Shown one piece after another: positions 33,552-34,238 of a DNA stretch of 64,000 nucleotides. Numbering within the stretch: position 1 is the stretch's first letter; the number at the start of each line of letters is the position of its first letter. A model generated the notes under the pieces. That model had not been told where the DNA came from. It saw only the letters and a list, made by a program, of their open reading frames with translations, and did no database searches. This stretch comes from an uncultured Bacteroidia bacterium (GTDB lineage: Bacteria > Bacteroidota > Bacteroidia > Bacteroidales > Prolixibacteraceae). Both the position numbers and the translations under genes were made by a program. The stretch covers positions 1 to 64,000 of the forward strand of contig CAIUAN010000057.1 in the NCBI GenBank assembly GCA_903897145.1. The letters are read 5' to 3'.

Positions 33552-33625
33552 TCCTTAGTAGCTCAGTTGGTTAGAGCGGCGGACTGTTAATCCGTAGGTC
33601 GTAGGTTCAAGTCCTACCTGAGGAG
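33552..33625 (+). tRNA. tRNA-Asn (GTT)
   Basis: A complete 74-base cloverleaf. The acceptor stem TCCTTAG (33552-33558) pairs with CTGAGGA (33618-33624), with one G-U pair. The D arm is GCTC/GAGC, and the anticodon stem GCGGA/TCCGT encloses CTGTTAA with anticodon GTT at 33586-33588. The T arm is GTAGG/CCTAC around TTCAAGT, and the discriminator base is G33625. CCA is not encoded. A terminator hairpin follows seven bases later. Downstream are decayed copies of the tRNA's own 3' half (see the repeat entries). Confidence 0.97.
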
Positions 33626-33631
33626 CTTAAA

Positions 33632-33658
33632 AGAGAGATCGAAAGGTCTCTTTTTTTG
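33632..33658 (+). terminator. Terminator of tRNA-Asn (copy 1)
   Basis: AGAGAGATC (33632-33640) pairs with GGTCTCTTT (33645-33653) around a GAAA tetraloop and runs into a seven-T tract. The same hairpin recurs at 33733-33757 and 34203-34228. Confidence 0.85.
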
Positions 33659-33665
33659 TTTTTAT

Positions 33666-33840
33666 TTGGTTAGAGCGGGCCGTAGGTCCAAGGTTCATCC
33701 CGATAGCTATCGGGATACCTGAGGAGCTTAAAAGAGAGATCGAAAGGTCTCTTTTTTGTTTTTATTTGGTTAGAGCGGGCCGTAGGTCCTAGGTTCATCC
33801 CGATAGCTATCGGGACAATAATTATCGAGATATCTGAGGA
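33666..33840 (+). repeat. Two decayed tandem copies of the tRNA-Asn 3' region
   Basis: Copy A (33666-33765) and copy B (from 33766) begin with the same TTGGTTAGAGCGG as the tRNA D arm and are offset by exactly 100 bases. Both lack about a dozen bases spanning the anticodon. In both, the right half of the T arm is replaced by the palindrome TCCCGATAGCTATCGGGA (33698-33715 and 33798-33815). Copy A then resumes the tRNA acceptor end and the terminator. Copy B continues into TATCGAGATATCTGAGGA, a mutated acceptor end. Neither copy can fold into a tRNA. Confidence 0.9.
33733..33757 (+). terminator. Duplicated tRNA terminator (copy 2)
   Basis: This has the same AGAGAGATC-GAAA-GGTCTCTTT hairpin as copy 1, with a slightly shorter T tract. 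It belongs to repeat copy A. Confidence 0.75.
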
Positions 33841-33889
33841 ACAAGTATTAAAGTCATATTTAAGCTGGCCATTTTTTGTACCTTTATGC

Positions 33890-34177
33890 ATGTCCTATGC
33901 CGTTTACATCCTATACAGCAAGAGCTTGGATCGCTTTTATATTGGCCAAACTAAAGATCTCAATAAACGACTTGCGTTCCATTTAGAAAAAAAATTTCAA
34001 GGGTCATTTACAAGCAAAGCAAATGATTGGGGATTATTTCAAACCATATCTTGCGAATCAAGGTTTCAAGCGATACAAATTGAATGTCATATTAAAAAAA
34101 TGAAAAGCCGCCAATACATTCAAAATATTAAAGAATACCCTGAAATTTCTGATAAATTAAAAAATAAATATCACTAA
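33890..34177 (+). CDS. Small GIY-YIG nuclease (UPF0213/URI-like)
   Basis: A 95-residue single-domain GIY-YIG endonuclease. The two core strands are VYIL (residues 5-8) and YIG (17-19). The conserved Arg27 and His31 follow in LNKRLAFHLEKK, and the metal-binding Glu is probably Glu65 in AIQIECHIKKMKSRQ. This composition fits an active nuclease. No DNA-binding domain is attached. The gene is inserted in the tRNA-Asn tail repeats: copy B lies just upstream, and its TAA stop is followed immediately by TATCGGGATACCTGAGGAG of another copy. TACCTTTA (33879-33886) is a possible -7 box. Related small genes are frequent in Bacteroidota and have no assigned role. Confidence 0.88.
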   Translation: MSYAVYILYSKSLDRFYIGQTKDLNKRLAFHLEKKFQGSFTSKANDWGLFQTISCESRFQAIQIECHIKKMKSRQYIQNIKEYPEISDKLKNKYH

Positions 34178-34238
34178 TATCGGGATACCTGAGGAGCTTA
34201 AAAGAGAGATCGAAAGGTCTCTTTTTTTGTTTTTATTA
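34178..34238 (+). repeat. Fourth partial copy of the tRNA tail and terminator
   Basis: The sequence from the half palindrome TATCGGGAT through ACCTGAGGAGCTTAAAAGAG and the hairpin to GTTTTTATT is the same as 33708-33767 except for one extra T. It begins one base after the stop codon of the GIY-YIG gene, so it marks the right edge of the insertion. Confidence 0.88.
34203..34228 (+). terminator. Duplicated tRNA terminator (copy 3), serves the GIY-YIG gene
   Basis: This is the same AGAGAGATC-GAAA-GGTCTCTTT hairpin and T7 tract as copy 1. It now lies 25 bases after the GIY-YIG stop codon, so it would end that transcript. Confidence 0.8.

Follow-up and report, generated by a model that had tools for sequence, protein, structure and literature searches.

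How a tRNA gene comes to be followed by degraded copies of its own tail, with a small nuclease gene set among them, is the question raised by a locus in the window analysed here, i.e., a stretch of 64,000 nt of contig CAIUAN010000057.1 from an uncultured member of the Prolixibacteraceae (Bacteroidota), within which all coordinates count from the first letter. The intact tRNA-Asn(GTT) gene (33552-33626, supported by ARAGORN and Rfam) is the sole tRNA that ARAGORN calls in the window, the gene of a single-domain GIY-YIG nuclease of 95 residues lies at 33890-34177, and the whole arrangement spans 33552-34232. A first-pass annotation of this DNA had recorded an intact tRNA-Asn with its terminator, tRNA-tail repeats approximately 100 bp apart, the GIY-YIG gene and a final tail, and this observation as a whole was confirmed. 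As our comparative analysis suggests, the arrangement probably represents an intron-less, tRNA-homing minimal element of approximately 0.35-0.45 kb per unit, which comprises a stand-alone GIY-YIG gene and a tRNA part for rebuilding the invaded tRNA and resembles SegB. Insertion with a rebuilt tRNA, displaced tRNA copies, arrays, and isotype-bound nuclease lineages under purifying selection were all observed; cutting of the empty tRNA gene by the nuclease, and its copying into the site during repair, are what we infer.

Insertion is documented by occupied and empty alleles of the same sites. At a tRNA-Val gene, the occupied genome G062 and the empty genome G063 differ by an insert of 353 bp, with 299 of 300 upstream, 76 of 76 tRNA and 293 of 300 downstream positions identical. 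The Asn pair at the pfkB locus (G030 occupied, G028 empty) differs by an insert of 378 bp, with the tRNA (75/75) and the downstream sequence (85/85) identical; its upstream 250 bp have diverged (156 matches and 25 gapped columns out of 254), so that the Asn case rests on the downstream side. In both pairs the encoded CCA and the terminator of the host stand behind the displaced copy and a further terminator comes after the intact tRNA, which places the insertion point within the tRNA gene, makes the intact tRNA a chimera and means that its 3' flank came with the element. By comparison with the occupied and empty relatives, the 3' part and 3' flank of the intact tRNA-Asn in the window would also have arrived with the element. 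The insertion footprint with a duplicated tRNA and a functional tRNA retained, as first annotated, is thus borne out by these comparisons, in which the element lies inside the tRNA gene, the tRNA is intact and the GIY-YIG gene is the sole recognised gene of either insert.

The same picture emerges from wider sets of relatives. The tRNA-Asn of the window has a pfkB-type kinase gene on one side and a DUF4294 gene on the other (Pfam). Among 22 relatives with an ortholog of the pfkB gene, the nuclease gene is present at the Asn site in four (G089, G093, G079 and G030), two carry solo tails with palindromes (G083, G094), one a truncated piece (G091), 13 are bare within the up to 420 bp displayed, and two are uninformative (G090, with no tRNA before the contig end, and G024, with 46 bp after the tRNA). 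Empty sites at the same locus were therefore found, and relatives bearing the gene carry it together with tRNA copies, so that both conditions named in the first-pass annotation as refuting its interpretation turned out in its favour. For the Val-TAC site of genus g6, to which the Val pair belongs, 14 of 30 fetched loci were compared: the site is empty in G063, G069 and G070, holds one to three genes in G037, G039, G043, G061, G062, G068 and G071, and has neither tRNA nor gene in G041 and G067. The tRNA-Val of G065 and G066 is followed by an unrelated insert of approximately 700 bp without a GIY-YIG gene, located between the intact tRNA and a palindrome-bearing copy (L171 740-1400, same place in L172); this insert gave no Rfam match in L171 or L172 and no plasmid match for the L171 stretch, holds three short open reading frames only, and is possibly a non-autonomous rider.

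In the window itself, a repeat search revealed a 56-nt repeat of tail plus terminator at 33607, 33708 and 34178, with 86-100% identity to the reference (96% for the copy at 34178), and two 64-nt copies at a spacing of 100 bp. All features described here except the palindromes, which have no strand, are on the forward strand. A terminator-like hairpin with a T-run follows the intact tRNA (33627-33660) and recurs after the tails. Copy 1 (33666-33727), a solo tail without nuclease gene, and copy 2 (33766-33843) both begin at tRNA position 16, in the D-loop, and have no anticodon arm; each bears the perfect 18-bp palindrome TCCCGATAGCTATCGGGA in place of the T-loop (33698-33715 and 33798-33815). 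Copy 1 finishes with acceptor strand and terminator, and copy 2 is decayed beyond its palindrome. The first-pass annotation was right about the missing anticodon, but the copies are more than 3' halves, and of its two tails the first runs through to a terminator and the second does not. Local alignments of the tRNA with these two tails scored 52 and 45, against a maximum of 30.5 in 300 shuffles of a 614-bp stretch. A decayed terminator 5' of the gene (33844-33880), compared by eye, matches the position of the terminator between tRNA or tail and gene in loci L007 and L009; the L007 protein, from the same locus, is 99% identical to that of the window. The last tail (34178-34197) consists of the half palindrome TATCGGGA and the final 12 nt of the tRNA, and a terminator stands behind it (34198-34232). 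It begins directly after the stop codon, mid-palindrome, and not one base further on as annotated; its 12-nt tRNA part (score 24) is not significant alone, and the half palindrome and the terminator place it in the 56-nt repeat. Apart from the intact tRNA, nothing between 33000 and 34700 passed the Rfam gathering score.

Two further GIY-YIG genes occur in the genome of the window, each beside a tRNA-Val; one, at L002, stands between Val copies that have TCCCGATTTTACATCGGGA in place of the anticodon arm, and the other, at 1501-1740 of L003 (contig C44), is decaying and interrupted by an in-frame TAA. Exact CCCGATAGCTATCGGG sites number three in this genome, each within a degenerate tRNA copy; the window has two of them and L006 the third, where it lies on the reverse strand of a tRNA-Met copy identified by eye via the tRNA-Met locus of G089, in which the intact tRNA is followed by two solo copies. 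These solo copies, which follow a tRNA-Met or lie near one (L053 1367-1660 in G089; L006 1450-1545 and 2815-2968), have the anticodon arm replaced by TCCCGATAGCTATCGGGA or a close form and no nuclease gene within the stretch read.

Displaced copies are widespread among the loci of the family. In 59 of 66 loci, the nuclease gene is directly followed by a degenerate copy of the same isotype whose score exceeds the 99% point of 330 shuffles, and in 57 of 66 it exceeds every shuffle; tRNAs of other isotypes, a measure of general tRNA similarity, exceeded all shuffles in 77 of 353 pairings with the downstream stretch. By alignment, the start of the displaced copy varies from tRNA position 2 to 64, and in 44 of 66 loci the alignment sets in no later than the last base of the stop codon. 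TAG is the stop codon of 52 of the 84 complete genes, and in many of them it corresponds to tRNA positions 8-10 or to the D-loop. Downstream of the gene, 64/66 loci lack the 13-nt anticodon core of their intact tRNA, a count that includes loci without a recognisable tail and tails starting beyond the core, and T-loop-type sequence was found downstream in 23/66 loci versus 58/66 intact tRNAs. The tail counts cover family loci only and exclude repeat fetches (L004, L005, L020, L021, L022 and L052), L008 (the L009 gene on another contig, without a whole tRNA) and L010-L019 (other named genomes); genes with less than 150 nt of profile match were dropped, including the broken own-genome copy L003. 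The tail-shuffle, linkage, tree, palindrome and dN/dS counts also exclude the re-fetched L056, L058, L060, L061, L063 and L068.

Furthermore, units of gene, tRNA copy and terminator form head-to-tail arrays of two to seven genes, with seven after tRNA-Asn in G114 (L059), six after tRNA-His in G067 (L057) and three each in G037, G068 and G071, one gene of the last array being apparently frameshifted. Only tRNAs passed the Rfam gathering score in L057, L059, L171 and L172. A mirror form was found in a Nomurabacteria and a Levybacteriota contig (Patescibacteria), in which the 5' half of a tRNA-Asn with TCCGCCAGCTGGCGGA in its D-loop is followed by the GIY-YIG gene and then by an intact tRNA-Asn, and in Eudoraea at tRNA-Asp, with the palindrome TCCCGAGTACTCGGGA. 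In most tRNA-Pro loci of the family, too, the intact tRNA comes after the gene, whose stop codon falls within this tRNA or immediately ahead of it.

Relatives of the protein were detected with a sequence profile in 116 of 140 genomes of the family (E 1e-5) and in 190 of 296 genomes sampled across the phylum (E 1e-8), and the best-scoring matches were chosen as loci blind to their surroundings. An intact same-strand tRNA is present in the fetched stretch of 77/86 family loci: in 71 it lies within 300 bp upstream or touches the gene end, and in 6 it lies further upstream. Since ARAGORN takes a few degenerate copies for tRNAs (L030 as Cys, L034 as Lys, L082, L095), the count of 71 was corrected for such calls. 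Of the remaining loci, L030 and L095 hold only a degenerate copy at a contig end, five more are cut by a contig end, and two (L070, with a long frame, and L054) have no tRNA. The median gap between tRNA and gene is 53.5 bp (66 loci). Phylum-wide, 27 of 28 loci are linked to a tRNA, the exception being at a contig edge, and the broken gene of a 29th locus (L145) was left out. As a genome has approximately 45 tRNAs, chance linkage would be well under 1%. The occupied tRNAs belong to 12 amino acids: Asn, Asp, Val, Met, Phe, Pro, His, Ser, Ala, Lys, Gly and Thr, with one locus each for Lys and Thr. The element is thus far wider than first annotated, with other isotypes, tandem arrays and a mirror form.

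Several GIY-YIG genes stand in other surroundings. In L070 (G132, C79) the match lies inside an open frame of 1205 residues with no tRNA in the stretch, and similar long frames occur in G286 (717) and G418 (1339). The small gene of L054 (reverse strand 1038-1262; G094, C150), away from any tRNA, is flanked by the 14-bp inverted repeat GCCCCGTTACAAAT / ATTTGTAACGGGGC; judged by eye it is perhaps inside an IS-like gene and may be another kind of mini-element. L217 and L214 (Eudoraea and Neomarinimicrobiota) have GIY-YIG genes approximately 260 and 323 bp downstream of a transfer-messenger RNA (tmRNA), on the same strand.

The nuclease lineages track the occupied tRNA much more than the host genus. 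On a quick tree of 114 genes, one per locus, built on 77 columns (isotype label for 105 rows, genus label for 112), isotype requires 25 changes for 15 states, far under the shuffled values (mean 74.1, lowest 65 in 200 shuffles), and genus requires 60 changes for 37 states (shuffled 71.3, lowest 67). GTDB family, run before one isotype label was corrected, requires 24 changes for 11 states (shuffled 27.7). The median dN/dS is 0.13 in 28 close pairs, including units of the same array, and within arrays it amounts to 0.06-0.13 in L059 and L064, 0.15 in L071 and 0.26 in L103.

The protein of the window matches the GIY-YIG family PF01541 in Pfam (7.3e-12, residues 3-74 of 95), as annotated. Y6, Y17, R27 and H31 are invariant in the family alignments and E65 is nearly so; the Tyr, Tyr, Arg and Glu we take to be the catalytic residues. 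The AlphaFold2 model is a confident single domain (mean pLDDT 92) whose C-terminus is a short helix only. The closest solved structures are UPF0213 proteins (1zg2 and 1ywl; sequence 4.3e-13), SLX1 and then I-TevI, and the best fold match is 1zg2, with a top fold-match E of 1.4e-3. The single PHROGs match, a weak one (1.9e-4) to a family of homing endonucleases, was that of the second own-genome protein, and matches in NCBIfam were weak and below the cut-off.

Taken together, these observations point to the following as the most likely course of events. A nuclease of a lineage specialised for one isotype would cut an unoccupied tRNA gene, and repair off an occupied copy, guided by homology that lies within the tRNA on either side, would copy in a new 3' half, a terminator and the nuclease gene. 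The product is the arrangement seen in the occupied/empty pairs, in which the gene comes after an intact tRNA and often ends, with its stop codon, within the displaced old copy, and in which this copy runs into the CCA and terminator of the host; in the mirror form, the 5' piece is displaced and the intact tRNA stands behind the gene. The loss of the anticodon core from the displaced copy and the frequent gain of an inverted repeat at a position typical of the group may serve to erase the recognised sequence. Repeated cutting and unequal recombination between tRNA copies could then give rise to arrays and solo tails, as with SegB in T6.

The most likely role of the inverted repeat is to erase, in the displaced copy, the arm that is recognised. 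The displaced copy of 48/72 loci contains a perfect inverted repeat whose right flank matches the tRNA; a few of these may be chance. The tRNA positions replaced by it are 29-45 in 10 of 14 Val-TAC loci (29-44 in one of these), 57-65 in 6 of 14 Asp loci, approximately 58-64 in four Asn loci, 57-60 in three of four Phe loci, 46-52 in three loci of Val-GAC and, in single loci, 51-65 (His) and 28-44 (Ala). As the position differs between groups, the T arm named in the first-pass annotation as the cutting site fails as a general site, the palindrome of Val-TAC being in the anticodon arm and that of Asn, Asp and Phe in the T-loop region; its minimal tRNA-inserted element stands. The palindrome occurs in the displaced 5' piece of the mirror form, so that, where seen, it marks the displaced piece on either side. 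A TCCCGA..TCGGGA type is common to Asn, Asp, Val-TAC, Ala and His, TCCGnCAGCTGnCGGA is found in Val-GAC, TCCG[GC]CAGCTG[GC]CGGA in Met, and others in Phe. Very high genome-wide counts of TCCCGA-n-TCGGGA sites, in G002 (157), G034 (117) and G130 (87; reversed control 0, 2 and 9, respectively), describe a family of Bacteroidota repeats that resembles repetitive extragenic palindromic (REP) sequences.

A number of points weigh against a homing element that erases its target. A separate DNA-binding domain is absent from the 95-residue protein, and homing enzymes of the I-TevI type have such a part beside the catalytic domain. A tblastn search of phages and plasmids with the window protein gave no match at 1e-5. 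The nuclease tree is short (77 columns) and poorly resolved, with 53 of 111 inner branches open, and several isotypes are split over more than one clade. Among 30 loci of lower-scoring small GIY-YIG genes in nine further genomes, 16 have a same-strand tRNA within 300 bp, two are near a tmRNA and 12 have neither, so that not all small GIY-YIG genes belong to this group. The displaced copy of 24/72 loci yielded no perfect inverted repeat. Moreover, the intact upstream tRNA keeps the presumed target arm, which is the weak point of the palindrome as an eraser and means that self-cutting must be limited somehow; the same puzzle is named for SegB in the consulted part of its description (PMC13096335). 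The likeness to SLX1 suggests one way out of this problem, i.e., a nuclease that reads structure.

On the same side stands the wide dispersal of the palindromes, which leads to a rival explanation of the palindrome alone. Ordinary REP sequences spread by RAYT (Y1) transposases into displaced copies free of constraint would explain the palindrome with the GIY-YIG gene unrelated, and we regard this as a serious, if doubtful, possibility. Both palindrome types are dispersed as REP-like repeats in these genomes, the same arm motifs occurring genome-wide in 136 of 140 (with few matches to a reversed control pattern), and RAYT genes are present in 128 of 140. Palindrome counts follow the numbers of both gene kinds: the partial correlation with RAYT at fixed GIY-YIG number is 0.27, and that with GIY-YIG at fixed RAYT number is 0.56, which drops to 0.25 after two palindromes per GIY-YIG gene are subtracted. 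Of the 37 palindromes that G037 carries outside its Val array, not one is flanked by sequence that resembles a tRNA more than shuffles do. The group-typical positions in Val-TAC and Asp speak against such an origin, as do the paired differences in Val-TAC stems (GAT/ATC, GAC/GTC and GGT/ACC, although the search demanded perfect repeats), the restriction of all three exact own-genome CCCGATAGCTATCGGG sites to tRNA copies, and the same palindrome in displaced tRNA pieces of the two Patescibacteria contigs. Y1_Tnp gave no match among 11 window genes scanned and four matches in the genome of the window. Two palindromes of G037 have particular surroundings: some twelve D-loop-like bases precede L229, and a tRNA-Gly is found at a distance of 107 bp from L250.

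An old, non-mobile pair of tRNA and nuclease, inherited vertically with a host role such as tRNA-gene maintenance or RNA processing and subject to local tandem duplication and losses, appears unlikely. Strong purifying selection, the very wide occurrence in family and phylum and the 99% identity of the window and L007 proteins at the same locus fit such a pair. The near-identical flanks of occupied and empty sites together with the shift of the CCA, however, indicate insertion and not plain loss, 13/22 orthologous Asn sites are bare, the nuclease tree agrees far better with isotype than with genus, and degenerate tRNA copies and a broken gene occur.

Quite improbable is also a passenger (satellite) role, in which a tyrosine or serine integrase acting in trans inserts the unit, the tails are attL and attR and the nuclease does something else. 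Integration into a tRNA gene with a rebuilt 3' end is the classic integrase footprint, and the occupied/empty pairs fit it. Against this, the 353- and 378-bp inserts leave little room beyond the nuclease gene and hold no integrase, and none was found, in agreement with the first-pass annotation, among the 10 neighbouring window genes scanned (28.0-39.9 kb); the repeated copy is no exact att core, its start being variable and a palindrome often being included; the mirror form displaces the 5' side; and the isotype-following tree and the dN/dS ties the nuclease itself to the target. Other candidates were rejected: a group I intron, as the tRNA is uninterrupted and Rfam gave no intron match; an integrase island, as no integrase was found among the 10 neighbours scanned; an assembly artefact, as the same arrangement occurs across many separate assemblies; a defence system, as PADLOC matches were weak (PDC-S14 over residues 2-50, best 6e-5); and pure REP insertion as an account of the whole element, which was retained for the palindrome only.

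Hence, the homing element remains the preferred reading, and the interpretation first offered, right in outline, is partly supported. By its sequence features, the element appears to work as homing endonuclease elements do: its sites exist in both occupied and empty form and no self-splicing intron surrounds the gene. Its membership in this class is putative, as cutting of the empty allele and biased transfer are predictions and the usual second domain is absent. A bolder proposal, which we put forward tentatively, is that of an undescribed class among the smallest autonomous kinds, in which a structure-reading single-domain GIY-YIG nuclease would recognise one arm of one isotype, home, rebuild the tRNA and swap the arm for a palindrome in the displaced copy, with lineages on approximately 12 amino-acid isotypes across Bacteroidota and into Patescibacteria, and would feed or share REP-like palindromes. 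A literature search, judged by listings and abstracts of mostly open-access, non-preprint publications, gave no description of such an element in bacterial chromosomes. If the homing reading holds, many tRNA genes of Bacteroidota house or once housed a tiny selfish nuclease, a biology is gained for many small GIY-YIG genes now called 'hypothetical', tRNA copy number and flanks in the phylum evolve partly under the influence of the element, a chromosomal case of tRNA-linked GIY-YIG homing stands beside that of phage SegB, the origin of palindromic repeats in Bacteroidota becomes testable, and compact nucleases with isotype-specific targets may be supplied.

Among known systems, tRNA-integrating islands share with the present element the insertion at tRNA genes, the tRNA kept whole and the duplicated end; the element differs in lacking an integrase and an exact att core, in its far smaller size and in having both 3'- and 5'-side forms. 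REP/RAYT systems share similar 16-20-bp palindromes dispersed in the same genomes, but the gene beside the palindrome is here a GIY-YIG gene, to which the HUH transposase RAYT is unrelated, and the site is a tRNA copy. The nearest solved relatives, UPF0213/YhbQ proteins (1zg2, 1ywl), are single-domain GIY-YIG proteins of similar length, for which we know of no function. SLX1, next best by sequence and fold, is a GIY-YIG nuclease that cuts branched DNA and may be a model for action on tRNA or palindrome hairpins; it is a eukaryotic repair enzyme with the partner SLX4 and no mobility. The closest parallel is SegB of the phages T4 and T6, presumably longer than the present protein and equipped with a DNA-binding part. 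In the parts of its descriptions consulted, SegB is a free-standing GIY-YIG homing endonuclease in a tRNA cluster that cuts inside tRNA genes at the motif RAWTSGAAC, without an intron (PMC13096335, PMC2988022). We read this motif as the reverse complement of a T-loop-type sequence. The same passages report that SegB is needed for tandem repeats of tRNA-Tyr and segB, via short homology of the tRNA 5' end and the gene 3' end (PMC13096335, PMC2988022), and they mention no displaced pseudo-tRNA, palindrome or rebuilt tRNA and report an absence of isotype preference. Thus, SegB belongs to phages and the present element to chromosomes, and both place a GIY-YIG gene directly beside tRNA genes, in tandem units of tRNA and nuclease and without an intron.

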